Shown piece after piece: positions 6,338 to 23,481 of a stretch of 38,549 bases of DNA. Made by a program: the position numbers and the translations under genes. The first letter of the stretch is position 1, and each line of letters starts with the position of its first letter. The stretch lies in the IMG/VR virus record IMGVR_UViG_3300018080_000333, positions 1 to 38,549 of that record. One strand, 5' to 3'. Source of the stretch: a virus. The notes below the pieces were generated by a model. The model made no database searches. It was not told the DNA's origin and saw nothing but the letters and a program-made list of their open reading frames with translations.

Positions 6338-6358
6338 TTGTCAACGAAAGGAAACGAT

Positions 6359-6805
6359 ATGCTGCACAGTACCAAAGCCCAAATCGAAAGCTTGTGGAAC
6401 CACGTATCGGTCAAACTACGTTTTTCCGAGATGGTCCGGGGAGAGGGCCACCGGTATAATGGTTTTCTGGAAGACGAGGTAGGAACCTACATCTTGAATC
6501 GTAGCATCAAATTGATGCTGGTTCATTCGGTAAAGTTCCTCCCTACGGAACAACATGGGTTGGAGATGCGCATCCGGGAGCGGGTCTACATTCGGGATTC
6601 CCGGACCTATTTGACCACCCCCGACGATGGGTCCGGCGAGACCGAGCTCAGTTTTACGATCTCGATCCTCGCGGGAGCCACGGTTGATGAGGTCGCCGAG
6701 GTGCTACGCTGTGGCCAGCGGTCTGGCTTCTCGCATCTCCAGTTTCGCGTTATCGAATTTCGACAAATTCTCAATCCGAGTTTGGATGTGGTCCCGTCGG
6801 CATAG
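6359..6805 (+). CDS. RAMP-like protein, short paralogue, 148 aa
   Basis: This protein is related to the next one. Both share an N-terminal LWNHV.VKLRF strand (residues 12-22 here), a YI.NR.IK.ML helix (44-54), an RERV.I.DRTYL region (73-85) and an ELSF...VDEVAE.LR region (96-117). In the larger copy the pattern resembles the RAMP (Cas7-like RNA-binding) fold. Here the C-terminal glycine-rich loop is degenerate (RSGFSHLQFRVIEF) and an insertion after residue 27 is missing. The start at 6359 follows AAAGGAAACGAT; an earlier TTG at 6338 is less likely. It could be a dimer partner or a decayed duplicate. Confidence 0.7.
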   Translation: MLHSTKAQIESLWNHVSVKLRFSEMVRGEGHRYNGFLEDEVGTYILNRSIKLMLVHSVKFLPTEQHGLEMRIRERVYIRDSRTYLTTPDDGSGETELSFTISILAGATVDEVAEVLRCGQRSGFSHLQFRVIEFRQILNPSLDVVPSA

Positions 6806-6859
6806 TGCCGGGGACCGTAGTTAAAACGGCAAACGTCAACGAATCATAGGAGAAACGAC

Positions 6860-7636
6860 ATGCCACCTAGTACAGAGCAACTCAAGAAATGGAACAAGAA
6901 GTTCACCGTGGACTTCTTCAACAACCACACCGACGGCCTCTGGAACCATGTGCTGGTCAAGCTCCGGTTCCACGATAAGCTGGCCGGAGGGATTCCCCGG
7001 AACGAGGAGGTGATCCGCAGCTGGATCGAGTCGAAGAACAAGGAGCTCAGTGCCACCGAGCGCGAGAAGCTGGTACAGGCCACGCTTGTGGAGCTCCCCG
7101 AGATGACCGAGGAGAAGAGCGAGAAGCACCGTGAGGGGTTCAAGTCGGACGGCCACGGACTCTACATCGAGAACCGCTGCATCAAGGCGATGCTGAAGGA
7201 GGCGGGCAACGTGATGAAGGGGGTGCTCGAAAAGAGCGGGCTGAAATCCAAGATTTCGGAGCGCGTCTTCGTACTCGGCGATCGGACCCACCTGCACCTC
7301 GACGCGCCGACCGGGACCGACGAGCGCGTGGTCCACGCGATGACGATGCAAGGGCCGCGCACCTCGATCCGGCTGGTCGATTATGCGGAGAACGCGGAGA
7401 TCAGCTTCGTGGTCGCCGTACTCGACGATCCGAGCAACAAGATGCGGGTCACGATCGACGAGGTCGCCGAGCTCCTGCGCTACGCCCAGCTCAACGGTCT
7501 GGGCGCGCTGCGCAGTCAGGGCTACGGACAGTTCAGCGTCGCCGAGTTCCGGGTGCTCGGTGAGGGCGAGTACGAGAAGGTTATGGCTGAGCTTCAGATG
7601 GACCCGGCGACGTGCCGTCGGGACAAGGCTGCCTGA
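6860..7636 (+). CDS. RAMP-like protein, long paralogue, 258 aa
   Basis: The protein opens with a strand-rich segment (LWNHVLVKLRFHDKLAGG, residues 27-44), then a charged helical insertion (48-95), a conserved YIENRCIKAMLKEA helix (102-115) and a C-terminal ferredoxin-like half. It ends in a glycine-rich loop at 213-225 (G.GALRSQGYGQF) leading into a strand. This combination, an ENR.IK.ML helix and a terminal G-rich loop, is what RAMP-superfamily proteins such as Cas7 and Cas5/6 show. No cas1, cas2 or repeat array is nearby. The ribosome site is AGGAGAAACGAC. The assignment rests on pattern only, so moderate confidence. Confidence 0.75.
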   Translation: MPPSTEQLKKWNKKFTVDFFNNHTDGLWNHVLVKLRFHDKLAGGIPRNEEVIRSWIESKNKELSATEREKLVQATLVELPEMTEEKSEKHREGFKSDGHGLYIENRCIKAMLKEAGNVMKGVLEKSGLKSKISERVFVLGDRTHLHLDAPTGTDERVVHAMTMQGPRTSIRLVDYAENAEISFVVAVLDDPSNKMRVTIDEVAELLRYAQLNGLGALRSQGYGQFSVAEFRVLGEGEYEKVMAELQMDPATCRRDKAA

Positions 7637-7704
7637 CATGTTGAGGACTGCGGCAACCAGACAGAGACGGGGCAGCCGCCGCTCCTCGGGCCACGCCCAA
7701 ATCA

Positions 7705-7724
7705 GGGGCCGGGAAACCGGCCCC
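7705..7724 (+). other. GC-rich hairpin with GAAA tetraloop
   Basis: GGGGCCGG (7705-7712) and CCGGCCCC (7717-7724) are perfectly complementary around a GAAA loop, an RNA-stabilising GNRA tetraloop. It lies about 70 bases after the stop of the RAMP-like gene. No T-run follows, so it is not a classical intrinsic terminator. It may protect or cap the 3' end of the operon transcript. Confidence 0.6.
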
Positions 7725-7741
7725 GAGTCCTCGTATCCGTT

Positions 7742-7809
7742 CGACAATCCGAACCTTACCCACCCGCGTGACGAATCAGCCCCGACCAGCTCGGGCGACA
7801 ATCCGAGCC
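7742..7809 (+). repeat. Imperfect direct repeat CGACAATCCGA(A/G)CC
   Basis: Copies at 7742-7755 and 7796-7809 differ at one base, with period 54. Weaker CGACAA and GACA variants recur through the rest of the C-rich stretch. They may be protein-binding sites or simply reflect the biased composition. Confidence 0.45.
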
Positions 7810-8089
7810 TGCCCCAACCGCGCCCAAACGACATGCCGCGACCTTTCGGACCAAATGACAAGCCCACCATGCCCGATACGCACCGCTCGACACCCCTCTC
7901 CATTCCTTACCAACCCTGCCCCCTTGACACTCCGGTCTACCCCAGACCAACCCGGACGACGTTCCTCAACCGTCCGAACCACTCGACAGACCAATCCAGC
8001 CCTCGCCAGCCCTTCTCCGTCCTTTCGACAAGTCGAGCCGCACCAACCCATGTCCCTGCGAGCGACGGTTCCAACCTTGCCACTCCACC

Positions 8090-8147
8090 GGACAAATCGG
8101 ATCACGCTACACCATCGGACTATCCAGCCCTCGGGACAAATCGGATC
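8090..8147 (+). repeat. Direct repeat GGACAAATCGGATC, two copies
   Basis: Identical 14-base copies lie at 8090-8103 and 8134-8147, 44 bases apart. The second ends 27 bases before the terminator stem and about 55 bases before the -35 box of the helicase promoter. They could be binding sites for a regulator or replication protein. Confidence 0.6.
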
Positions 8148-8173
8148 GTGTCGTGACGCGCCGCCCCGCCTAC

Positions 8174-8197
8174 AGCCCCCGGTTCTCCGGGGGCTTT
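8174..8197 (+). terminator. Intrinsic terminator
   Basis: A 9-base-pair stem, AGCCCCCGG (8174-8182) with CCGGGGGCT (8187-8195), closes a TTCT loop and runs into TTTACC. The T-tail is short but the stem is very stable. It would end transcription from the upstream early operon just before the promoter of the helicase gene. Confidence 0.75.
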
Positions 8198-8202
8198 ACC
8201 CC

Positions 8203-8231
8203 TTGTATCCTAGTGTAATCCGTGTTACTCT
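8203..8231 (+). promoter_or_regulatory. Sigma70-like promoter, possibly giving a leaderless mRNA
   Basis: TTGTAT (8203-8208) and TACTCT (8226-8231) are separated by exactly 17 bases. A start point 7 bases after the -10 box would fall on the helicase ATG itself (8238), and no ribosome site is present in the 20 bases before that ATG. An overlapping alternative -10 box, TGTAAT at 8214-8219, would give a leader of about 12 bases. Confidence 0.5.
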
Positions 8232-8237
8232 AGCCCT

Positions 8238-9710
8238 ATGAAAGTTTACTACGATCATCATCTGTGCCGAGTCGAGGCGACGCCTTACGAGTTACAGGAG
8301 CTCCATGCGTGGCTCACCGATACCACCAAGAAGGAGGTAGTGTCTGCGCTGCGTTGGAGTGGGGCGCACCCGTACTGCGGCGATCCATTGATCTGGACCG
8401 GCCTTCTCGATCAGACCCGAGACTGGGCAGCGGCCCACAACATCCCCTTCGAGGTTGAGGGGTACGTGGATCGGAGCGTCTCATTCTCCGAGATCGAACC
8501 ACCTGAGCTTAGGGGCATCGAGCTCCGGGACTATCAGGTCGCAGCGATCAAACAGGCGATCCACCGGGGCCACGGTATCCTCCAGATGGGAACCGGTGCC
8601 GGTAAGACCGAGATTTTCGTGGCGATCCTGAAGTGGTATCTGGACCACGGGAAGATCGAGAATGGTCTGATCGTGGTGGGAACCGAGCGGTTGCTGGAGC
8701 AAACCAAGCTCCGGCTCATCGAGCGTGGAGTCCCCGATGAGATGGTGGGCGTGCTTGGAAATGGTCGTCAGGCGCTCAAACAGCCGATTACAGTGGCGAT
8801 CTCCAATGGTCTGTATAACGGCGTCAAATCACGGCGATCGTCGTTCCTAGAGGCTCTCAGCGCCAAACAGGCGGTGATTTTCGATGAATGTCACCACCTC
8901 CGGAGCGAATCGTGGTCTGCGATCGCAGCGGAAATCCCGGCTCCCTACCGGTTTGGGGCATCAGCCACACCATTCAACAACCCACTGGCCGATGCGGTCG
9001 ACGACCGAATAGTGGTCGGGGCAACCGGGGAGGTGGTTTATTCATTGCCCGCATGGGTTCTGGTGCAGGAAGGTTTACTGGCCGAGCCGGAGGTGCGAAC
9101 CGTAGCGATTCACTCCACGGAGACCCCAGACGGAGTCGACGGCAAACTCTCGCATCTTATCCGGGACTGGGCCGATGTGTATCGCTACGGGATCGTCGCC
9201 AATCCTCATCGGAACGCCGAGATCGTTCATCTGACCCAACACTATGCGAATCAGGGATGTTCGGTGCTGGTCTTCGTACACCACAAGCGGCACGGACACG
9301 ACCTGCTGCGACGCTGCGCTGAAGACGGCTACGGAGAAGCCTCGATCTTCACGACCGGGAAAAAGGAGGTCTGGACAGCTCCCTACGGCACGGTCAAGAA
9401 GGAGAAGTGGGACTTGGAGCGGCTCCACGAGTTCATCAGCCAGCCCTCGATCACCTTTGCGACCCCGGTGCTGGACGAAGGCGTGGACATCAGTGGGATC
9501 AACGCGATCATCTACGCTGCCGCCGGACGCTCGCCTCGACAGCTGCTCCAGCGGCTCGGACGCGGGATGCGGGTCAAGGAAGGCTCGGTGCTCGGGAACC
9601 GGTGCCACGTGATCGATTTCATGGACCTGACCCATCCCTACCTGAAGCACCAGAGCCTGACCCGATTCAGCATCTATCGGAATCACCGCATCCCGGTGGC
9701 AGCACTGTGA
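8238..9710 (+). CDS. SF2 DNA helicase, UvsW-like, 490 aa
   Basis: A DEAD/DEAH-type superfamily 2 translocase. Visible motifs are the Q-like LRDYQ (96-100), Walker A GTGAGKT (118-124), DECH (216-219), SAT (242-244) and the arginine-finger motif QRLGRGMR near residue 455. The N-terminal 90 residues are a separate domain, as in T4 UvsW and related phage helicases that remodel D-loops, R-loops and forks. The gene stands apart, flanked on both sides by long non-coding stretches, with its own promoter and no visible ribosome site. It may act at origins or in recombination-dependent replication; a restriction-type helicase is less likely because no partner subunit is near. Confidence 0.88.
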   Translation: MKVYYDHHLCRVEATPYELQELHAWLTDTTKKEVVSALRWSGAHPYCGDPLIWTGLLDQTRDWAAAHNIPFEVEGYVDRSVSFSEIEPPELRGIELRDYQVAAIKQAIHRGHGILQMGTGAGKTEIFVAILKWYLDHGKIENGLIVVGTERLLEQTKLRLIERGVPDEMVGVLGNGRQALKQPITVAISNGLYNGVKSRRSSFLEALSAKQAVIFDECHHLRSESWSAIAAEIPAPYRFGASATPFNNPLADAVDDRIVVGATGEVVYSLPAWVLVQEGLLAEPEVRTVAIHSTETPDGVDGKLSHLIRDWADVYRYGIVANPHRNAEIVHLTQHYANQGCSVLVFVHHKRHGHDLLRRCAEDGYGEASIFTTGKKEVWTAPYGTVKKEKWDLERLHEFISQPSITFATPVLDEGVDISGINAIIYAAAGRSPRQLLQRLGRGMRVKEGSVLGNRCHVIDFMDLTHPYLKHQSLTRFSIYRNHRIPVAAL

Positions 9711-9750
9711 GCGGGGCGGGGCGAGCAGGAGGGGAGATTTGCTGCGGAGC

Positions 9751-9805
9751 GGGGAGGGTGGACTATTCTCATCAGCACGGAAAGGGGAGGGTGGATTATC
9801 AGCAC
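9751..9805 (+). repeat. Direct repeat GGGGAGGGTGGA...TCAGCAC
   Basis: The 12-base GGGGAGGGTGGA occurs at 9751-9762 and 9784-9795. Each copy is followed by a TAT-containing spacer and TCAGCAC (9772-9778 and 9799-9805), so the longer unit is repeated with a short deletion in the second copy. Confidence 0.65.
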
Positions 9806-9922
9806 TGATTTCTTCTCTCGGCTCTCCTCTCTCCTTTCCTCTCTCTTCTCTCTCTAAACACTAAAGAGTAAAAAGTAAATTTTTCCCGCCCGCGAACCTC
9901 CCCCCATTATAATAGAATGAAA

Positions 9923-9944
9923 AAGAAAAGTAAAGTCTTTTCTT
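9923..9944 (+). repeat. Inverted repeat AAGAAAAG / CTTTTCTT
   Basis: An 8-base perfect palindrome with a 6-base TAAAGT loop in the A/T-rich part of the intergenic stretch. It could be a protein site or a weak terminator for the preceding helicase gene. Confidence 0.5.
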
Positions 9945-10035
9945 CAACTCTCTACTCTCCCCTCTTTGCAAAATCTATACCAACCGAGCCTCCTCCTTCC
10001 GCCAGCCCTGTCCTCAGCCCTCCATTTCAGCCCAG

Positions 10036-10059
10036 TGTTCGGAGCTAATGTTCGGAGCT
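10036..10059 (+). repeat. Tandem TGTTCGGAGCT, candidate operator
   Basis: Two identical 11-base copies (10036-10046 and 10049-10059) with 13-base period end 14 bases before the -35 box of the replication promoter. Their position suits an activator or repressor; the RHH protein at 12146 is one possible ligand. Confidence 0.55.
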
Positions 10060-10073
10060 CAAACCGAAAACCC

Positions 10074-10102
10074 TTGACGTTCGCCAGAACCTAGTCTATT
10101 CT
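10074..10102 (+). promoter_or_regulatory. Sigma70-like promoter of the replication operon
   Basis: TTGACG (10074-10079), a 17-base spacer and TATTCT (10097-10102). Transcription would begin near 10109 and read through the 88-aa gene into the helicase operon. The match and spacing agree with the promoters at 12083 and 30552. Confidence 0.75.
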
Positions 10103-10138
10103 ATTGGGACGTTTTTCACTCACTAGAAGGAGATCAGA

Positions 10139-10405
10139 ATGAAAGTTACGGAAATCACAGTCAGTATGGGTCGGACCATGAATATGGGAAATTACGAATC
10201 GGCCCGGATCGAAACCAGCTTTACGGCGCAGCTGGAGAAGGACGACAACCCTGAAGCGTGCGCGTCCGAACTTTCACAAGCCGTAGCGGCGCACCTCAAG
10301 AACCATTCCAAGATCGTGGTGGAGGGCCACTTGATCGGGAAGTACGAGCGTGAGCAGTGGTTGGCTCATTTGACCACACAGGAGGTGGAGCACGACGGAC
10401 AATGA
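10139..10405 (+). CDS. Hypothetical protein, 88 aa, first gene of replication operon
   Basis: The start follows AAGGAGATCAGA. The protein reads as a beta-rich first half (EITVSMGRTMNMGNYES then ARIETSFTAQLE) and a helical second half. That pattern of a strand, MGNYES-type turn and strand is often seen in small phage proteins encoded next to SSB or helicase genes, but I cannot give a function. The stop overlaps the next ATG by 4 bases. Confidence 0.75.
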   Translation: MKVTEITVSMGRTMNMGNYESARIETSFTAQLEKDDNPEACASELSQAVAAHLKNHSKIVVEGHLIGKYEREQWLAHLTTQEVEHDGQ

Positions 10406-10725
10406 GCTCTCAGAACCAGCAAACGATCATTGTCTACTTCCGGGGCGGTCGGGTCTGGGAGATGGAACCGGCCTACGAAAGTAGCTACGATAAGTGGCGG
10501 TATAACACGAAGGACGGGTGCCGCTACTGGCTTAGCTTACAACCCCTAGCTCAGCCTTCAATGATCAGGCTTCAGCGGTCCACCCCGAAGACCGATCGGA
10601 TCACAGACGAGGAGATTGACATTGAGCGGATCGTGTTTCCGAACCACGGTGAGCTCTTCCCGAAGAGGTACACGCCGCCGTTCTGTCGCCAAGAGGTGCA
10701 GCGGAAGAGGAGGGAAGGACGTTGA
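10402..10725 (+). CDS. Hypothetical protein, 107 aa
   Basis: The start at 10402 (ATGAGC) overlaps the previous stop and has GGAGGTGGAG upstream. The early part has beta strands with Trp and Tyr; the tail is strongly basic (QRKRREGR). It overlaps the helicase start by 4 bases. No family recognised. Confidence 0.65.
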   Translation: MSSQNQQTIIVYFRGGRVWEMEPAYESSYDKWRYNTKDGCRYWLSLQPLAQPSMIRLQRSTPKTDRITDEEIDIERIVFPNHGELFPKRYTPPFCRQEVQRKRREGR

Positions 10726-12086
10726 GCGAGATCACCGCATATCCGTTTGACATAAAGTTCCAACGTAAAATACTCGCCCTGATGGTTCGGGAACCGCACT
10801 TCTTGGAGCGGTTCCCCGGCGTGATCCAGCCCCAGTTCTTTCAAAACGAAATCCTCCAGACCCTGTGTCGCCAGATCGTGCGGCATCGTGAACGCTACAA
10901 CGAGACCCTCTCGCTCCCAGTCTACATCGAGGAGCTGGATCGGCTGCGGTCCAGTGGAGCTTTGGCCGAGGAGCTCTATCAGTCTTTGGTAGAAGAGGGG
11001 AGTTACATCTTCGAGCGTGTCGAGCTGGCTGATCCTGTAACGGTTCGGGATCATGCGGTTGACTTCGCACGGGACGAGGCGATGCGTCTGGCCCTGATTC
11101 GGGTGGTTGAAGAGTTCAAGAAGGATAGTCGGGAGCGTGTACCACTCGACGAGCAGATCGATTGGTTGGTCTCGGCGGGGCGGACCGGGCAGGACGTGAG
11201 GGACATGGGGATGAGCTTTTCGCGGGAGGGGGCCGAGCTGCCGATGCGGCTGCGATCCTCGGCGTATGGGGAAGACCAGCGGATCAAGACGGCGTTTCCC
11301 CGGCTCAACACAATCACCTATGGCGGCTTGGGCCGTGGGGAGCTCGTCGTGGTCCTCGGTCTGAGTGGTGCGGGCAAGACGATGTGTTGCATCAATCTCG
11401 CGGCCTATCATCTTCAGTACGGAAGGGGGAAGGTTCTGCACTATGCGATCGGTGATCTGCATACCGAGGACGTGGCGCTTCGGTATGCGGCGCGGCTCAC
11501 TGGTTGCCGGATGTACGATGTGGTGCGGAACGAGGAGATGTTCCTGCGCCGCTACAAGGAGGAGCGTCTCGACGAGCTCGGCCTATGGATCAAGACATTC
11601 ACGCCGGGCACCACAACTATCGGAATGATCCGCAATCACCTGTCCGCACTCGTCGCCGCTGAAGGGTTTGCACCCGACATTATGATCCTCGACTACCCGG
11701 ATCAGCTGCGCGGTGCAACCGGGGAAAACATGTACGAGGCGATGGGGTCGATCTACGACGAGGTGTTGAACATTGCGTACGAGTACGATCTGGTCGCGAT
11801 TGTCCCCTCCCAGATCAGCCGAACCTCGCGCTTCGCGACGCGAGCCTTCAAGGGCGAGGTGCTCACGCAGGATCACGTTGCCAACAGTTCGCAGAAGACC
11901 TCGAAGGCCGATCTGGTGATGAGCGTGAACCAGTCACCGCAGGAGCGGGCCAACAACGAGGCCCGTATCTTCGTGGACAAGAATCGTCGTGGCAAGTCCA
12001 ATGTGGAGTTCAAGGTTGGCTTTCAGTTCGAGCACGCCTTCATGTGCGAGCTGGACGACGATTCCGAAGATGGCGAGGGGTCTTGA
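10722..12086 (+). CDS. Replicative DNA helicase, DnaB family, 454 aa
   Basis: An SF4 hexameric helicase that would unwind the fork. The N-terminal DnaB-like helical domain covers about 10-135. The RecA-like motor starts near 195 with GGLGRGELVVVLG, Walker A GLSGAGKT (213-220), Walker B MILDY (321-325, D324), and a sensor PSQISR (362-367). The C-terminal part has DKNRRGKS, matching the arginine-rich H4 region of the family. The start codon is TTG at 10722, chosen because GAGGAGGGAAGG lies just upstream and it overlaps the preceding stop; no suitable ATG exists near. The T4 counterpart is gp41. Confidence 0.92.
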   Translation: MSEITAYPFDIKFQRKILALMVREPHFLERFPGVIQPQFFQNEILQTLCRQIVRHRERYNETLSLPVYIEELDRLRSSGALAEELYQSLVEEGSYIFERVELADPVTVRDHAVDFARDEAMRLALIRVVEEFKKDSRERVPLDEQIDWLVSAGRTGQDVRDMGMSFSREGAELPMRLRSSAYGEDQRIKTAFPRLNTITYGGLGRGELVVVLGLSGAGKTMCCINLAAYHLQYGRGKVLHYAIGDLHTEDVALRYAARLTGCRMYDVVRNEEMFLRRYKEERLDELGLWIKTFTPGTTTIGMIRNHLSALVAAEGFAPDIMILDYPDQLRGATGENMYEAMGSIYDEVLNIAYEYDLVAIVPSQISRTSRFATRAFKGEVLTQDHVANSSQKTSKADLVMSVNQSPQERANNEARIFVDKNRRGKSNVEFKVGFQFEHAFMCELDDDSEDGEGS

Positions 12087-12111
12087 CATGTCTATCCTAT
12101 TCGACTACAAT
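12083..12111 (+). promoter_or_regulatory. Strong sigma70 promoter
   Basis: TTGACA (12083-12088, exact consensus), 17-base spacer, TACAAT (12106-12111, one mismatch). It overlaps the helicase stop codon and would start transcripts near 12118, 28 bases before the RHH gene. This is the best promoter in the window. Confidence 0.85.
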
Positions 12112-12145
12112 AGCCTGCGGACGAGTGCTGTATAGGAGATGCGAT

Positions 12146-12373
12146 ATGCCGAAATCAGTCAGTGAGGGGGAACGGAGCCATACGCTTCAGGTGATCGTTC
12201 CCGAGTCAATGGTCGATCAGATCGACGAGGTTTGGGAGGAGGCCGGATACCGGAGCCGGTCGTCCTTCCTCTACGATGTGCTCGCCGGTGTTATTGCCGG
12301 TAAGATTCGACCGGTGAAGTCCGGAACCACGGCGCAGTTATACGATGCCGTGCAGCGTTTGCAGGCATCCTGA
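12146..12373 (+). CDS. Ribbon-helix-helix transcription regulator, 75 aa
   Basis: The order is a short strand (residues 12-19, HTLQVIVP), helix A (20-33), a turn with GYRSRSSF (34-41) and helix B (37-52), the MetJ/Arc/CopG-type fold that binds DNA as a dimer through the strand. The start at 12146 follows TAGGAGATGCGAT. It has its own strong promoter and no toxin-like partner follows, so an autoregulated phage repressor or activator is likelier than an antitoxin. Its targets could include the palindrome at 30529 or the direct repeats at 10036; neither is shown. Confidence 0.8.
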   Translation: MPKSVSEGERSHTLQVIVPESMVDQIDEVWEEAGYRSRSSFLYDVLAGVIAGKIRPVKSGTTAQLYDAVQRLQAS

Positions 12374-12404
12374 TTCGACAACGACAGTGAAAAGGAGTGC
12401 AAGC

Positions 12405-12743
12405 ATGAGCGTTTTCAGTGACGATTTCAAGTTGAGTTTCGAGGCTCTACCGCTTCAGTTCGGTATTGTCCGCAACCCGGAACTGGAGAAGAATATCCGG
12501 GGGGAGTACGGCGGTAAGATTCAGATGACAATCAAAAAGCGGAGCGATGCCGGGAAGTCGCCGGTTGTCGGAATGCTCGTCGGCGTCGGTAATCTGCTTC
12601 AGCGTCTCGACGAGTCGGCTCCCGAGGGGCAGGGCGTGATGTTGCCCAACACTACTTCGATCGGTCTCGATGTGGGGGGGAAGCCGGTCGTCGTCGCGTG
12701 GGACGATGTCTCCGAGTTCACCTATACGAAGGTTCCCGAATAA
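12405..12743 (+). CDS. Hypothetical protein, 112 aa
   Basis: The start follows AAAGGAGTGCAAGC. The protein is a small mixed domain with a basic central strand pair (IQMTIKKRS) and a hydrophobic VVGMLVGVGNLL stretch (residues 49-61) that is too polar around it to be a clear membrane span. The C-terminal part appears beta-rich. No family recognised. It belongs to the transcript from the promoter at 12083. Confidence 0.7.
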   Translation: MSVFSDDFKLSFEALPLQFGIVRNPELEKNIRGEYGGKIQMTIKKRSDAGKSPVVGMLVGVGNLLQRLDESAPEGQGVMLPNTTSIGLDVGGKPVVVAWDDVSEFTYTKVPE

Positions 12744-12774
12744 TCCCAATCCCGCGTCATGCTGTCTGGGTGTC

Positions 12775-12823
12775 GGGGAGCGCCGGGTGGTCGTGCCACC
12801 GAAGCGCTGTGAGGCGCATCCCC
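12775..12823 (+). other. Structured RNA element between genes
   Basis: GGGGAGCGCC (12775-12784) pairs with GGCGC-A-TCCCC (12813-12823), leaving one bulged A. Inside lies a GGTGG/CCACC hairpin (12786-12800). The outer helix is followed by TTTT and then by the ribosome site of the zinc-ribbon gene (AAGGAG). It may be a weak terminator, an attenuator or a translation control element. Confidence 0.45.
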
Positions 12824-12840
12824 TTTTCAAGGAGAACGAG

Positions 12841-13020
12841 ATGCTGACAAAGACTTGTCCGAAGTGCGGGGGAATGATGGTTCCGGCGAATTACGACACC
12901 GGGGAGGGTAAGGTTATTTTGAAGTGTGCTTGGTGCGGCGGTTCCACAGAGGAGGTCGAGCCGCTCGACAAGGCTCCGAAGGAGCAGGAGAAGTCGGAGC
13001 GGAAACCACTCCATGATTGA
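12841..13020 (+). CDS. Zinc-ribbon protein, 59 aa
   Basis: Four cysteines form two knuckles, C6-x2-C9 and C29-x2-C32, in the spacing of a zinc ribbon; the rest is an acidic and lysine-rich tail. The start follows CAAGGAGAACGAG. The gene overlaps the primase start by 8 bases, so it may work with the primase or polymerase, or be a small transcription factor. No further function can be read. Confidence 0.75.
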   Translation: MLTKTCPKCGGMMVPANYDTGEGKVILKCAWCGGSTEEVEPLDKAPKEQEKSERKPLHD

Positions 13021-13990
13021 GTTCGATCCACGAGTCGTCGCGAAGCTGGGGACACCGCTTCGTGCCGGGGCAAACGAGCGGCGTTTCAACTGCCCGTTTT
13101 GCCCGCCGACCCGTCCGGACAAGAAGCACCATTTGTACTTCAATATCCAGACGGGTTTGTGGACCTGTCACCGCTGCGGTGCCAAGGGTGCGCGGCGTCA
13201 CTTCTACGAATTGCTGGGCATCCCGTATGGGGGGGATCACCCAGCACCTACACCCGATCAGTTTGACGGGTTGATCGATACACTGCGGCGTTCCTGCGGT
13301 GAGACGGAAGGGGTTGCCGAGATCAACCCATCGATCGGGATGCCACCATGTCAGCCGATCGGTCCAGAGTCTCCGGCGGCATATTATCTGCTGGATCGAG
13401 GGCTAACATGGGACGATATTAACTACTACAACATTCGAGAGGGGTTGTTGGAGCTGGCTGAACGGGTCGTTTTTCTGGAGCAGGCGGGTCCATCTCCAGA
13501 CGATCCCGTGGTGTTTTGGCAGGCCCGAGCCTTCACCGAGGCATTGTTGCGTGACATTAAGAACTATCCGGGTCGCGCCGACAAGTATCAGAGTGCTCCG
13601 GGGGTGAAGAAATCGATGTGTCTGTGGAACATGAACCGCATCGTCGATTTCACCCGTGTCTACATCACCGAGGGAATCTTCGATGCGATCGCGGTGGGCA
13701 AGCAGGCGGTTGCCGGGTACGGAAAAGACCTGAGTCAGGACCAGCGCTTCCGGCTGCTCCGTGCGAATTTCGATGAATACATCGTTGCCTTGGATAGCGA
13801 TGCGATGGACAAGGCGGTCAAGCTGTGCGAGTGGCTTCATAATCAGGGGTGTCGGGTCTCGCTGGTGCCGTTACCACCGGGGCACGATCCCGGTGATCTC
13901 GGTTACGAGCGGTTCCACCAGATACGACCAGTTCCTTTCGATCCGTGGACCGCGACAAGCGAATTTTTGATGCGAGGACGGCGTGGCTAA
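13013..13990 (+). CDS. DnaG-type primase, 325 aa
   Basis: The protein has an N-terminal zinc-binding domain with C27-x2-C30 and C52-H-x-C55 (FNCPFC and TCHRCG), then a TOPRIM fold. TOPRIM motifs are E220-G221 in VYITEGIFDA, D261-x-D263 in ALDSD, and a later HDPGD. It would make RNA primers for the DnaB-type helicase and the polymerase encoded nearby. At 325 aa it is shorter than bacterial DnaG because the C-terminal helicase-binding domain is absent, as is usual in phages. The start at 13013 has GGAGCGG upstream. The gene overlaps the polymerase gene by 8 bases. Confidence 0.9.
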   Translation: MIEFDPRVVAKLGTPLRAGANERRFNCPFCPPTRPDKKHHLYFNIQTGLWTCHRCGAKGARRHFYELLGIPYGGDHPAPTPDQFDGLIDTLRRSCGETEGVAEINPSIGMPPCQPIGPESPAAYYLLDRGLTWDDINYYNIREGLLELAERVVFLEQAGPSPDDPVVFWQARAFTEALLRDIKNYPGRADKYQSAPGVKKSMCLWNMNRIVDFTRVYITEGIFDAIAVGKQAVAGYGKDLSQDQRFRLLRANFDEYIVALDSDAMDKAVKLCEWLHNQGCRVSLVPLPPGHDPGDLGYERFHQIRPVPFDPWTATSEFLMRGRRG

Positions 13991-16900
13991 GAGCAAGAAA
14001 CCGAGGAAGCCGAAGCTGCTGAAGAAGTGGGACAACTGCTATACCGCTCCGTGGCTCGATCCGGGGACGGTGTATCGTCGCTGTTTCTACTGCGGTGCCG
14101 AGGTCGATCAGGCCAAGGGGCAGCCCGGCTGCGATCGCGAGGTCGTCTGCTCGATCTGTCGGGGCGACCAAGCTGTTGACCTCACACCGGGAACATGCCA
14201 GCGGTGCCCTCTGTGTGCTCAGCCCGAGTTGATGACTAATCGGATGCCGGGATACGGGGCGACCAAGCCGCGTATCCTGATCGTTGGGGAGGCTCCGGGG
14301 CGGACCGAGGATAAGTCGGGGATGCCGTTTGTCGGCAAGGCGGGTGAGCTGCTGCGTGGCTACCTACAAGAGGTTGGTATCCCTGACGAGGCGATCGCGT
14401 TTACGAACGTGGTGCGCTGCTGTCCGATCGAGGGTAAGGGGATTCGTTCGCCGGAGAAGTTCGAGATTATGGCCTGTCGCTACCATATCCAAAAGGAGAT
14501 CGTGCAATACGATCCGGAGATCGTCTTGGTCCTCGGTAACTCGGCGACCCAGAGCTTGCTCGGTAAGAAAAACATTACGCAGATCAGGGGGAAATTACAT
14601 ACATTAGATATTGCCCACTTCGGTAAGGAGTGGTTTAGCGGGAGCTATCGATGCCTTCCCGTGATCCATCCATCGGCGGTGCTGCGCGGTAACACGAAGT
14701 ACGGGGCGCTCATCGTTCAAGACCTGCGGTACGCATGGGATATGATTAACGGCACATTGGCAACCGTGGCCCGGACCGATCTTGAGGACATCGAGGCGAT
14801 CGAGGAGCAGGTGGATCGTTGGATTGCCGAGTATCAAGCCGGGAAGTGGGACTACCTCAGTGTCGACACGGAGGCTTCCAGTGAGGGGGAGAATGGTGGA
14901 CTCGAAATTTTCCATTCGACGTTTCGGATGCTGTGCGTGACAATCGCGCCGGGTTGGTGGGAGCACGCACCGCCGGACGAGCACGCCTATTTTATTCCGT
15001 ACCGGTACAAGCATGGACCGTTTGCAGGCGATCTGGTTGCCATTGCCCAGATCGACGCGGCGCTCAATCGTTTGTTTCGGGCGGTGCCGGTTGCCGGTCA
15101 AAACTTCCAGTACGATCATACCGTGTTCCATTCCCACACCGCGACCCGGATTCCGGGAAAGAATGTGGTGTGGGATACGATGTTGGCGGCGTGGTCGATT
15201 TCTAACGATACCGAGCAGCACGACCTCGACTACCTCGCAACGAATTATGGGGGCTGGAGCCACCCGAAGCAGGAGATGTACGAGGCGCAGATGAAGCTGC
15301 GGAAGGACCAAGACCCGTTCGAGGACGTGCCGCCCGAGGTTTTCAAGAACTATGCGTGTGGCGATGTGGTTGCGGTTAGTAAGATCATCCCGGTTCAGAA
15401 GCGGCTGATGGAGTCGGTTGAGATTCCGCCGGATAGCCTCGTTGAGTTGCACAAGATGCCGGGACTCTACGATCCGGAGATCGACAAAGGGCTGATCTGG
15501 GCCTATAAAAATCTCTCCCTGAAGAGTCACCCGTTCGCCGTGCAGATGCGGATCAATGGTGTTTTCGTGGATCGTTCGATTCTGAACGAGGTACGCGAGG
15601 AGCAGCGGCAGCAGGTCGAGGATTTTATCCAGTGGTTTGTGGATGCGGGATATGAACAAGCTTTGACGGAGATGTGCGACTACAAGTTGGTTCTGAACGG
15701 TTGGCAGTCGATGAACCTGATGTTGCACGGGGTTATGGGTCTGCCCTACATACCGGGGCATTACAAGGAGGCTACCGACAAAATCCTGACCAGTCGGGGC
15801 TACACGGTGCAGGGCGAGACCAACAAGGATACGATCGAGCTGCACATCGAATACCTCGCGAAGTGCCAGAAGCGCGATCCGGCGAACAATGCGTACTATG
15901 AGCAGTCAATCGCGGCGCTTCACAAGCTGTTGGATTACCGCACGCTCAATAAGCATTACACATCCTATGTGTTGCCGTTGGAGCGATTGATCGGTTGGGA
16001 CGGCTGCACCCACAGCTGCTACAATATTCGTTGCACGGGCACCGGTCGGTGGAGCGCGACCGACCCGGCGATTCAGACGGTCCCGCGAGAGGGGATTATT
16101 AAGAAGGTCTACATCAGCCGCTTCGTTGACGGACTGCTCTGTATGGGGGACTACAGTCAAATGGAGCTGCGTGAGGGTGCACGGAAAAGTGGGGAAGAAC
16201 GGTGGCTGATCCATTTTCGGAACCATGCCGACATTCATACGATGAACGCGGCGATGTACTTTGCGAAGCTGGCCGAGGAGGTTACGAAGGAGGAGCGCAG
16301 CTCGGGTAAGGCGACGACATTCGGGGTGATGTACGGGATGAAGCCTGCGACAATCGCGGCGACCTATCATATCCCGTTGGCCCATGCGGAAATGATTTAC
16401 GAGGCGATCATCGCGCAGTGTACTAACTATAAAAAGTATATGGACAACTGCGAGGATTTCGTTAAAACTCATAAGTGCATCTGGACCTCGTTGGGGCATC
16501 GGCGGCTCTTGCCCGACATCGACGACGACAACCGGTTTTTCAGCAGCGGGGCGGTTCGAGCGGCGATCAACACGCCGATCCAAGGCGACTCCAGCGATTT
16601 GGCGACATTGGCGCTTCAGCAGATTCACGAGGAGATCGAGGAGCGTCGGATGTGGTCGCGGCTCTGGGAGTTCATCCATGACAGTATCGGTGCGGATACG
16701 CCGATCTTCGAGCTCTACGATTACATGGCGTTGCAGCAATGGGCCATGGTGGAGAACCTGCCGCAGTGTCTTCCGATCCTCAACGTACCGTTGGAGGTCG
16801 AGTTCGATGTCGGTCTAAACTGGTATGAGACGATTGGGGCGGTCCTGTTGCCGGATCGCCAAGTCAAATTGAAGGCGAAGGGGGAGAAGATCGACGTGAT

Positions 16901-17045
16901 GAAGCAAATCTTGCGACACATCAAACAACACGATTCCGGCGTCGAGATGGTGTATTCCGAGCTGGAGGAGGAGAAGGCCGAGTCCGTGCTCACATTCCCG
17001 GAAGTGGCACCGGGTCGTGAGCCGGTGTGGCGGGAGGTCGTATGA
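13983..17045 (+). CDS. Fusion of family-4 uracil-DNA glycosylase and family A DNA polymerase, 1020 aa
   Basis: Residues 34-60 hold a four-cysteine knuckle (C34, C37, C56, C59). The UDG domain (72-255) shows GEAPGRTED (102-110), PFVGKAG, TNVVRCCP (141-148) and HPSAVLR (229-235); cysteines at 72/75, 146/147 and 165 suit the family-4 [4Fe-4S] site. The proofreading exonuclease has D295-x-E297, N374-x3-D378 and Y457-x3-D461, all intact. The polymerase has motif A DYSQMELR (723-730), motif B R772-x3-K776-x3-F780-x3-YG, and motif C HDS (899-901) where HDE is usual. There is no 5' nuclease domain; that is a separate gene at 19123. SPO1 DNA polymerase is the known precedent for the UDG-like N-terminus. 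The start is GTG at 13983. Confidence 0.93.
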   Translation: MAKSKKPRKPKLLKKWDNCYTAPWLDPGTVYRRCFYCGAEVDQAKGQPGCDREVVCSICRGDQAVDLTPGTCQRCPLCAQPELMTNRMPGYGATKPRILIVGEAPGRTEDKSGMPFVGKAGELLRGYLQEVGIPDEAIAFTNVVRCCPIEGKGIRSPEKFEIMACRYHIQKEIVQYDPEIVLVLGNSATQSLLGKKNITQIRGKLHTLDIAHFGKEWFSGSYRCLPVIHPSAVLRGNTKYGALIVQDLRYAWDMINGTLATVARTDLEDIEAIEEQVDRWIAEYQAGKWDYLSVDTEASSEGENGGLEIFHSTFRMLCVTIAPGWWEHAPPDEHAYFIPYRYKHGPFAGDLVAIAQIDAALNRLFRAVPVAGQNFQYDHTVFHSHTATRIPGKNVVWDTMLAAWSISNDTEQHDLDYLATNYGGWSHPKQEMYEAQMKLRKDQDPFEDVPPEVFKNYACGDVVAVSKIIPVQKRLMESVEIPPDSLVELHKMPGLYDPEIDKGLIWAYKNLSLKSHPFAVQMRINGVFVDRSILNEVREEQRQQVEDFIQWFVDAGYEQALTEMCDYKLVLNGWQSMNLMLHGVMGLPYIPGHYKEATDKILTSRGYTVQGETNKDTIELHIEYLAKCQKRDPANNAYYEQSIAALHKLLDYRTLNKHYTSYVLPLERLIGWDGCTHSCYNIRCTGTGRWSATDPAIQTVPREGIIKKVYISRFVDGLLCMGDYSQMELREGARKSGEERWLIHFRNHADIHTMNAAMYFAKLAEEVTKEERSSGKATTFGVMYGMKPATIAATYHIPLAHAEMIYEAIIAQCTNYKKYMDNCEDFVKTHKCIWTSLGHRRLLPDIDDDNRFFSSGAVRAAINTPIQGDSSDLATLALQQIHEEIEERRMWSRLWEFIHDSIGADTPIFELYDYMALQQWAMVENLPQCLPILNVPLEVEFDVGLNWYETIGAVLLPDRQVKLKAKGEKIDVMKQILRHIKQHDSGVEMVYSELEEEKAESVLTFPEVAPGREPVWREVV

Positions 17046-20287: not shown

Positions 20288-20492
20288 GCGCGGGAGTACA
20301 GTGTATTTCCTATCTGGGTCGGCGCGTACCCAGAGGCGTCGTCTACCGGCGGACACCGTGTTGAGCGGTCGGGTCCGGCGGATTCATCGTAACTATGTTC
20401 GGGTCCAGCTCAAGAGCGGTCGGGTCGTCCGCTTGGACCGGGACACTGTGTACCGCAAGCCGATTGTTAAGCGGGTTGTGGTGGAGGAGTAG
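20238..20492 (+). CDS. Small basic beta-rich protein, 84 aa
   Basis: ATG 20238 follows GGCGGAGGAGAGAG. The second half (residues 39-80) alternates basic and hydrophobic residues in strand-like runs (VLSGRVRRIHRNYVRVQL, then GRVVRLDRDTVYRKP), resembling a small SH3- or KOW-like barrel that could bind nucleic acid. This is a shape impression. It ends one base before the Mre11-Rad50 start. Confidence 0.6.
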   Translation: MSQRFLTGDGPVPRIAERGSTVYFLSGSARTQRRRLPADTVLSGRVRRIHRNYVRVQLKSGRVVRLDRDTVYRKPIVKRVVVEE

Positions 20493-20493
20493 A

Positions 20494-23481
20494 ATGCGAA
20501 TTTTAATCGGGAGCGATCCCCACATCTACCCGGATACCGCGTTTAGCCGTCCGACCGAGGATGGTCTGACCACGCACCTGCACGACATCATTCAAACTTT
20601 TGAGTGGTTTCGTCTACACGTTGCGGAGAGCAAGCCGGACTGGGTCTTTATTACCGGTGATATTTTCCATACGCATGACTATATCGATGCGCGATCGCTC
20701 AAGGTGGCGCATCAGGTCTTGACCGATCTGCATAGGCACTGTCGCAGCATCGCGGGTATCCCGTTGGAGATCGTGCTTGGGAACCACGAGCTCTACAATG
20801 CGTCGCAGCAGATTCATCTCCTGCACTGGCTCAACGAGCTCGTGATCGATAAGATGGGGGTTCGGGACCCGTCGCAGGGCGACGGGGTGTGGTTTCACTA
20901 TGTGCCGTTCATGGACCATACTCCGGAGAACGAGGATAGGCTTCGCCAGCTGAGTCAGGATAGCTCGGCGAAGCTCAATCTGTTTTTTACGCATCTGGAG
21001 ATCGTCGGGGCGACGCGACAGGTCGGTAGTGCGTCGACAAAGGGGTTTCCGATCGATGTGTTCCCGCCCGGCGCGGTGGTTGTGAATGGGCACTACCACC
21101 ATCCCCATTCCCAGAACGGTCCGGATGGCCGGGTGATTCATCATGTGGGGAGCCTGATGACCCGTTCCTTCAGCGATACCGAGGGTGGCGCGGCCCGAGG
21201 CTTGCTCCAGCTCGACATCGATACGACGGGGGACGAGGTGCGGTGCGAGGCGACCCGGATCGAGGGGGTTCATCACAAGAAGTTCAAGACGATCCATATC
21301 CGCCAACAACAGGACGTGGCGAAGCTGGAGTTGATGGCGGATCAGGACCGGACCAATGTTAAGGTGATCTGCCACGACCAGCGGATGTTGGGGTCGAAGA
21401 CACTGGAGAAGGCGCTGGACCGTTTTCATGGCTCAATCGTCTCTCCGGGTGAGATCGAGAAGCCGGACGATACCTCGGTCAAGTTGAGCCTCGACACCTC
21501 TGTAGAGGCGAATCTGGACGCTTATCTGGCCGAATTGGACCATGAAACCCTGTCGCCGCTGGTCGATTTGGAAACGGTGCGGGACTCGTTGAAGCTCGCG
21601 GCCAGCATTGCCAGTGCCAACCAGCCTACGAAGAGTCGGTCCGAAGTGCGGTTCAAGCGACTGGTCGGCCACAACTTCCTCTCGTTCAAGGACTTTGACA
21701 TCGAGCTGGACGATCAGGGTTTGGTGATGGTGGAGGGGGAGAATCTGGACGATAGCGGATCGTCGAGCAACGGGTCCGGGAAATCAGCGATCTGGGAAGC
21801 CCTGTTCTGGGTGCTCTACGACAAGACGCTGCGGGGAGTCCGGAAGACCGAGGTGAAGTGGCGCAACGGTAAGGCGAGCAAGAAGACGCCGTGCCGCGTC
21901 CAGCTGGAGCTGGAGATCGGTGACATCTCTTATATCGTCGAGCGATACCGGGACGACCCGGAACGTGGGACCGGGGCCGGGGTGGTGGTCAACGGGGAGA
22001 CGATCAGCCCGCGCCTTGCCGGGGATGTGCAGGATCAGATCGATGATTTGATCGGTGTCGATGCGGATATGGCTCAGCATCTCTGGTTAATGACGCAAGG
22101 GCTGACCCACCGGTTCATGGGTCTGGGGGATGCGGATCGCAAACGGCTGGTTGAGTCAATGATCGATCTATCGATTTACGATCAACTCCATACGGAGATG
22201 CGGACCAAGTGGCGGACCACTGAGATCGGACTCCTGTCACGACAGGGTGAGGCGCAGCAGGTGGAGCGACAGCTCGGCTTGGAACGGGAGCGTCGAGTGA
22301 CCGTTTCGGAATCGTTGGCGCAATATCGATCTGAGGTCCGAGGGAACCGTGAGGAGGCCGAGCAGACCAAGACATCGTTAGAAAAGAATCTGGAGACGTG
22401 GCGGCTGGATATTGAATCGGCGCGTGGCTTGGTCAACGGCGAGCAGGCCCGGATCGATGAGCTGGAGGGGCGGCGTGATGACCCGACGTTGCGGGGGGAG
22501 TACGAGGAGGTGATTAGGAGGATCGCTCGTTTGAGCTCACAGGTCTCCACGGTGAAGGATCGTATCTGTGAGGCACAGCAGCTGTTGGACGCGGGGAAGT
22601 GCCCGACCTGCGGACAGAGCCTCGACAACGCGGATGCGATTCATCGACAGGTTGAGCAGGATGTTGGCCCGCTGGAGGCTGAGCTGGCGACTCTCAAAAC
22701 GTCTCGTCGAAACCTCGATGCGACACGGGACCAGATTGTCGAGGAGATCGCGGCTGCGAAGGAGCAACGTGATGTCTACCGTGCCGATGTGGGGCGGTTG
22801 GAGGGTTGGATCGCGTCGGGCGAGTCTCGGTTGCGGGAGGCCGAGACCTTCCTTTCCGGGATCGAACGGAGAGAATCTGATCTGGTCGCCGAGGCGAAGT
22901 TGATTGATGACCGCGTTGAAGAGTATATTAGACAGGTCGAACAAACGACCACAGAGGTACGAGATGCGGAGATTGAAGTGGCGAACCTAGACTTTACAGT
23001 GCAGCTGCTCGCGCCGACCGGGATGCGGTCATTGGTGCTGCGGTCTGCTGTGGAGTATTTGAACGGGAAGCTCGCGGAGTATTCCGACATCTTGCTCGGT
23101 GGGGAGCGGGTCGTCATCAACAACAAGACCGAGCTCAAGTCGGGGAAATCGGTCGATAAGTTCTCGGTTGATGTGCATGGTGGGCGTAGCTACGCGGCCT
23201 GTAGTTCCGGCGAACGCCGACGCGCTGACCTCGTGATTCAGTTTGCATTGAATGCGCTGGCACGTGCCACCACCAATCTAAAGATGAACCTGCTTGTTAC
23301 CGATGAGATCGATGACAAGCTTGATGTGACCGGGATGGAGAACCTTGTACGCCTCTTGCAGATGATCGCGAACGATGGGTTGTCGGTGTTTCTCGTCACC
23401 CAGCACAGCTTCTTGAAGGGGATGATTCCAAAGCGGTGGGTGGTTCGCAAGGAGCGGGGCGTCAGCCAGTTGATGGCGTAG
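20494..23481 (+). CDS. Single-chain Mre11-Rad50 (SbcD-SbcC) nuclease/ATPase fusion, 995 aa
   Basis: Residues 1-380 are an Mre11/SbcD nuclease: D8-x-H10, GD56, GNHE (96-99), H167, and GHYHH (199-203). A linker of about 20 residues leads into Rad50/SbcC from about 385. This part has Walker A in GSSSNGSGKS (422-431), long coiled-coil arms, a zinc hook C703-P-T-C706, the second arm, a signature-like SSGERRRADL, Walker B LLVTDEIDD, and an H-loop TQHS. In T4 these are gp47 and gp46, and in most bacteria two overlapping genes. The complex resects and processes DNA ends during recombination. The reading frame is continuous, with no stop at the junction. ATG 20494 follows GTGGAGGAGTAGA. Confidence 0.92.
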   Translation: MRILIGSDPHIYPDTAFSRPTEDGLTTHLHDIIQTFEWFRLHVAESKPDWVFITGDIFHTHDYIDARSLKVAHQVLTDLHRHCRSIAGIPLEIVLGNHELYNASQQIHLLHWLNELVIDKMGVRDPSQGDGVWFHYVPFMDHTPENEDRLRQLSQDSSAKLNLFFTHLEIVGATRQVGSASTKGFPIDVFPPGAVVVNGHYHHPHSQNGPDGRVIHHVGSLMTRSFSDTEGGAARGLLQLDIDTTGDEVRCEATRIEGVHHKKFKTIHIRQQQDVAKLELMADQDRTNVKVICHDQRMLGSKTLEKALDRFHGSIVSPGEIEKPDDTSVKLSLDTSVEANLDAYLAELDHETLSPLVDLETVRDSLKLAASIASANQPTKSRSEVRFKRLVGHNFLSFKDFDIELDDQGLVMVEGENLDDSGSSSNGSGKSAIWEALFWVLYDKTLRGVRKTEVKWRNGKASKKTPCRVQLELEIGDISYIVERYRDDPERGTGAGVVVNGETISPRLAGDVQDQIDDLIGVDADMAQHLWLMTQGLTHRFMGLGDADRKRLVESMIDLSIYDQLHTEMRTKWRTTEIGLLSRQGEAQQVERQLGLERERRVTVSESLAQYRSEVRGNREEAEQTKTSLEKNLETWRLDIESARGLVNGEQARIDELEGRRDDPTLRGEYEEVIRRIARLSSQVSTVKDRICEAQQLLDAGKCPTCGQSLDNADAIHRQVEQDVGPLEAELATLKTSRRNLDATRDQIVEEIAAAKEQRDVYRADVGRLEGWIASGESRLREAETFLSGIERRESDLVAEAKLIDDRVEEYIRQVEQTTTEVRDAEIEVANLDFTVQLLAPTGMRSLVLRSAVEYLNGKLAEYSDILLGGERVVINNKTELKSGKSVDKFSVDVHGGRSYAACSSGERRRADLVIQFALNALARATTNLKMNLLVTDEIDDKLDVTGMENLVRLLQMIANDGLSVFLVTQHSFLKGMIPKRWVVRKERGVSQLMA

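Follow-up and report, generated by a model that had tools for sequence, protein, structure and literature searches.

The window analysed here, that is, the whole stretch of 38,549 nt of the IMG/VR virus record IMGVR_UViG_3300018080_000333, contains two tandem genes for related RAMP proteins and a non-coding repeat array. The features of this locus, with the evidence for each, are as follows.

6359..6805, plus strand: short RAMP (Vipr) paralogue of 148 aa (open reading frame, paralogy, predicted structure, family HMM, codon GC).
6860..7636, plus strand: long RAMP protein of 258 aa, homologue of Vipr (predicted structure, Foldseek, conserved columns).
7705..7724, plus strand: GC-rich hairpin 3' of the vipr stop codon, ahead of the array (folding compared with shuffles).
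7737..8165, plus strand: non-coding, vrRNA-like array with a 5-nt register, in which GAC markers mostly recur at 27, 32 or 37 nt (lag tests, array model).
8171..8198, plus strand: GC-rich hairpin and short T tract closing the array (inverted repeat with 12-nt arms, 92% complementary; predicted stem).

Both genes are intact open reading frames with ATG starts on one strand, separated by 54 nt; an alternative TTG start is possible for the short gene at position 6338. The two proteins match each other in BLASTP with an E value of 2e-15 and have the LWNHV.VKLRF, YI.NR.IK.ML, and VDEVAE/IDEVAE segments in common, which upholds the relatedness that an earlier interpretation of the DNA (hereafter the sequence-only reading) had deduced from these segments. 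The short protein also matches the family HMM (4e-18). As that reading stated, the long protein ends with a G-rich loop, GLGALRSQGYGQF, followed by a strand, and the short protein lacks this loop. The loss is more extensive than was then described, as the thumb beta-hairpin and the N-terminal helical insertion are also gone.

In their predicted structures, both proteins have a single-RRM RAMP fold resembling that of Cas7 and Csm3. The AlphaFold models have a pLDDT of 89.2 for the long protein (70 aligned rows) and 88.0 for the short one (38 rows), with a pTM of 0.81 in each case, and fold searches place an RRM/ferredoxin-like core in both. For the long model, the best Foldseek match has an E value of 3.9e-9, and the PDB matches listed are all class 1 Cas7/Csm3/Cmr proteins or Cas7-11; VIA-align gives a Z of 13.9 both to Csm3 (6xn3_F) and to the type VII Cas7 (8yhd_O). 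The best VIA-align match of the short model is also Csm3 6xn3_F, with a Z of 10.1. In the long model, the thumb hairpin corresponds to residues 152-176 and the glycine loop to residues 209-225, of which G209, G213, G215, G221, and G223 are conserved across the family (74- and 70-row alignments). At the sequence level, the long protein alone gives weak matches in curated libraries, to the Cas6 C-terminal domain (0.06) and to Csm4 (9e-4), whereas the profile of the family matches the type VII CRISPR Cas7 (9.4e-6) and Csm4 (2.3e-5) in the PDB. The PADLOC matches of family members are mostly RAMP proteins. The sequence-only reading had called both proteins RAMP-like and had proposed structure prediction, fold search, and an HMM search as checks; the call is borne out by all three, through the RRM core, the best structural matches to Csm3 and Cas7, and the remote RAMP matches of the profile. 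Neither an invariant aspartate nor an invariant histidine is present in the 74- and 70-row family alignments, and a single glutamate, E69, is conserved at 90% or more. As no invariant Asp or His is found, these alignments suggest that a binding function fits the family better than a nuclease function.

It had also been claimed that there is no CRISPR near the two genes. Indeed, no CRISPR-like exact repeat, tRNA or Rfam family was found within the window, and the 25 best-ranking PADLOC families matched by 52 window ORFs include no Cas family, these negative results covering the window only, which is a genome fragment. The neighbourhood is nevertheless not empty: directly 3' of the long RAMP gene lies the repeat array at 7737-8165, which the sequence-only reading did not report. 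The lag-5 excess of this array is higher than in all 2000 dinucleotide shuffles, and its lag-27 excess is reached in none of 1000. An array model trained on the arrays of six relatives (L003, L008, L009, L012, L013, and L014), with the window excluded, was scanned over the whole window on both strands, and its 14 highest-scoring slices all fall at 7621-8220 on the plus strand. With this model, the array scores a z of 6.5 against dinucleotide shuffles, each half being above 4, and the controls (a coding stretch within vipr, the helicase gene, and the window's second G-poor stretch) score about zero. Compared with the arrays of its relatives, that of the window is weaker and less regular, and its conserved triplet is loose. 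A coding function was rejected, as the ORFs across the array have no gene-like codon-position GC.

Repeated hairpins were also considered as the functional unit of the array. Folding of the array in the window and in the closest relatives is near that of shuffles or weaker (z from -0.9 to +3.9), so this idea was dropped. The 120 nt past the vipr stop codon of the window fold with a z of -2.6 (dinucleotide shuffles); the corresponding z is -4.6 in L008, -2.6 in L012, and about -1.7 in L009 and L013, four relatives with a similar hairpin in this position, whereas none is seen in L003. The hairpin at 8171-8198 is possibly the 3' end of a precursor RNA; it was not called in a terminator scan. A second G-poor, non-coding stretch, which contains tracts of pyrimidines and of purines, is located at 9711-10138 of the window, 3' of the helicase gene. 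As an array, its 9800-10120 portion was rejected: its lag-5 score is high, but its 5-nt lag series is not clean and the array-model z is 0.6.

A single-sequence search of IMG/VR revealed no relatives of either protein; an alignment query was required. The alignment-based scan yielded 130 viral loci, 80 of which were kept, and 31 bacterial contigs, mostly of Clostridia, and no relatives were found among plasmids. With tblastn, Microcystis phage Mae-JY09 (WWT39994.1) and four fecal phage contigs were retrieved. Mae-JY09 carries the closest named relative (32% identity), with a C-rich, CGAC-marked array after it; unlike the window, this phage has a single RAMP copy, directly preceded by a gene of about 180 aa from another family. 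By fold, the protein A0A8S5R426 of Siphoviridae sp. ctcMb1 (BFVD) belongs to the same phage family (Foldseek E 4.7e-13, 25% identity); its name, 'Cas system-associated RAMP superfamily protein', is a database name only, and neither a function nor an array has been described for it. Judging from their sequences, the neighbours of the relatives' RAMP genes include SSB, RusA-like, NinB-like, RecT, YqaJ, and helicase genes. In three relatives, a weakly conserved gene of about 180-206 aa overlaps the start of the RAMP gene from upstream (L003 7456-7995, L012 3217-3777, and L033 7297-7917). It has no Pfam match and is a candidate accessory (vap) gene. In L033, the RAMP homologue itself is split over two frames about 145 nt apart (7914-9062), possibly by a frameshift, an insertion or an assembly error.

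The DNA 3' of the RAMP stop codons of the relatives is skewed and non-coding. There, the autocorrelation of G at lags 5, 10, and 15 averages +0.23, +0.15, and +0.13 over 104 loci, and falls to approximately zero at lags 5 and 10 when measured 2 kb away. In a Fourier scan, 99 of 106 homologous loci have a 5-nt array at most 350 nt away from their RAMP gene, more often downstream than upstream; at distances above 1.5 kb, 8 period calls were made in 1.03 Mb. Among the distant calls, those in L018 and L047 were rejected as arrays since they resembled repetitive coding sequence or simple repeats. For each of the 98 arrays that were modelled, the RAMP-gene strand gave the better fit. In a cyclic model of the arrays, the units are G-[CA]-A-N-N, a 6-nt unit GCAANG recurs every 26, 31 or 36 nt, and 90% of the 1620 gaps between markers equal 5n+1. 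The closest relatives (the six used to train the array model) exhibit NN-G-Y-C units with a CGAC marker, which is often spaced by 38, 43 or 48 nt, by 33 nt in L003, and by 49 or 54 nt in L008. Marker spacing is of the form 5n+2 nt in the window, 5n+3 or 5n+4 in its relatives, and 5n+1 in Clostridia. In L026, the stretch with a period-5 signal is about 4.2 kb long (9090-13285), compared with a median array of about 500 nt. Extra array-like sequence is also present on the strand of the RAMP gene, 1.3-4.7 kb from it, at 4165-5135 in L068, 10090-10535 in L085, and 13340-14085 in L118.

The same layout, a RAMP gene bordered by pentanucleotide repeats, is found in VIPR (Viral Interference Programmable Repeat), described in a preprint of April 2026 (version 2, June 2026; PMC13142463). 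According to this preprint, Vipr is a phage RAMP protein with a single RRM, a thumb, and a G-loop, the vrRNAs alternate a conserved triplet with NN, dsDNA is recognised via the NN with one skipped base, and competing phages are silenced. Seven types are distinguished there, staggered arrays with overlapping vrRNAs are mentioned, some systems are said to be aimed at other VIPR systems, and an accessory gene (vap) beside vipr is presented as typical, not universal. Compared with the VIPR of Escherichia phage SUSP1 (type II), the window likewise encodes, in a virus record, a single-RRM RAMP protein with a predicted thumb and glycine loop, and the gene adjoins long non-coding DNA with pentanucleotide repeats of triplet plus NN on its own strand (7737-8165), as in the 99 relatives mentioned above. 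The consensus is GYC/NN-like or GMA/NN in the window and its relatives, that of the window being looser, versus GGY/NN in VIPR. In addition, the arrays found here are continuous with register-shifting markers, which may match the staggered arrays of the preprint. The third difference is the truncated RAMP copy, which is the immediate upstream neighbour of vipr in the window; no vap gene of a described kind was identified beside vipr, and the helicase gene downstream of the array (8238-9710) could be either a vap or an ordinary replication gene. Among the ORFs in the first 50 kb of SUSP1, a phage used in the preprint, our family profile matches ALH47069.1 best (E 0.0086), and this gene is flanked by GGTNN repeats. 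Direct similarity to ALH47069.1 is weak and mainly confined to the glycine loop.

The long protein also resembles Csm3 and type VII Cas7 in its fold, thumb, and glycine loop and, by analogy, may be a filament-forming RNA-guided subunit like them. In contrast to these, it occurs in a window where neither a CRISPR array nor other cas genes were found, the alignments of its family show no invariant aspartate that could be catalytic, and the linked array is in a 5-nt register. Cas7 filaments accommodate 6 nt per subunit.

As the pentanucleotide array adjoins the RAMP gene, we consider that the locus is very probably a VIPR-type system for RNA-guided DNA recognition. The sequence-only reading had regarded the pair as an undescribed system, a view that has to be abandoned since the preprint already describes the architecture. 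By analogy with the mechanism given there (PMC13142463), the array would be transcribed and its RNA coated by Vipr protomers, one per pentanucleotide, with the conserved bases held by the thumb and the glycine loop. The variable NN pairs of successive units would then pair with the dsDNA of a competing phage or satellite, and this binding would silence transcription without cutting. We would guess that the short copy, with its RRM core and neither thumb nor glycine loop, enters the filament as a cap or a spacer that does not read the guide, and put the chance of this just below even. In a 1.4-Mb search for natural targets, which found none, the array units did not outperform shuffled units under the skip rule: a raw excess at skip 1 in some frames resembles that expected for codon-periodic GC-rich targets, and shuffled NN units did as well. 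One 20-base spaced pattern from the window array had zero exact matches in IMG/VR.

Two other explanations of the locus dispense with a guide RNA. According to the sequence-only reading, the proteins would be an RNA-binding pair acting against or in place of the host CRISPR, or in RNA protection or repair. The RAMP fold of both proteins and a window in which neither a CRISPR array nor cas genes were seen agree with this. It leaves unexplained, however, why the gene has an array beside it in almost every locus (99/106), and we regard a guide-less pair as very unlikely, the adjoining array pointing to VIPR instead. Even less credible is an explanation in which the G-poor stretch 3' of the gene has nothing to do with the RAMP proteins and serves as a Rho-type terminator or a replication origin. 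Its strong excess of C over G (skew of about -0.48) is like that of Rho sites, and the relatives are often near recombination and replication genes. Against this, neither Rho sites nor origins are characterised by spaced markers in a 5-nt register, the array model does not recognise the second G-poor stretch (9800-10120), and the arrays accompany the RAMP gene in 99 of the 106 loci, whether they lie upstream or downstream of it.

Within the VIPR-type reading, the tandem second RAMP protein without thumb hairpin or glycine loop may be a new part, as nothing in the available part of PMC13142463 matches such an arrangement. Our tentative proposal, which we hold to be possible rather than probable, is a two-RAMP VIPR in which duplication of vipr produced a specialised subunit that lacks both thumb and glycine loop and partners the guide-reading Vipr, modelling a Cas5/Cas7-type split, and in which the register-shifting markers are punctuation setting the length of the filament or the processing of the RNA. 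The heteromer that the sequence-only reading proposed for the long and the loop-less protein is likewise possible. There is also a serious, if somewhat less than even, chance that the short copy is a decaying, non-functional duplicate of vipr and that the system is an ordinary single-protein VIPR. Two RAMP copies are present in the window only, among 117 loci, and a search for relatives of the tandem gene pair found none; moreover, the RNA-contacting elements are gone, and the third-position GC of the short gene (0.66) is below that of vipr (0.87). Decay is, however, at odds with an intact ORF whose losses are loops and hairpins and whose core is confidently folded in the model, and the codon-position GC of the short gene is gene-like, the gene preceding it having a similarly low third-position GC (0.62). 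In the remaining explanation, which we judge unlikely, VIPR complexes are poisoned or capped by the short copy, be they those of this phage, for self-control, or those of a competitor, as an anti-VIPR factor. The predicted core is the part that packs in RAMP filaments, the RNA-reading parts are missing, and VIPR systems targeting other VIPR systems are reported in PMC13142463. Nevertheless, free-standing short copies were not found elsewhere, either in the IMG/VR search or in the gene-pair search.

VIPR has been proposed to predate the RAMP proteins of CRISPR. A phage in which a complete Vipr sits next to a stripped-down paralogue makes the passage from a single RAMP protein to a set of specialised ones, an unsettled point, accessible to experiment; if the two-RAMP VIPR is true, it would be a present-day model of an ancestral RAMP protein splitting into Cas5/Cas7-type subunits. 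The RAMP-linked arrays of Clostridia phages and prophages constitute a large natural set whose grammar is clear, with units of G-M-A-N-N and GCAANG markers spaced by 26, 31 or 36 nt, and are a possible source for decoding targets and processing rules.

Two further ORFs of the window were observed. One ORF at 13983-17045 encodes a uracil-DNA glycosylase domain fused to a family A DNA polymerase, a fusion that is uncommon. A single ORF at 20395-23481 comprises an SbcD-like phosphoesterase and an SbcC-like ATPase, and is apparently a fused SbcD-SbcC.
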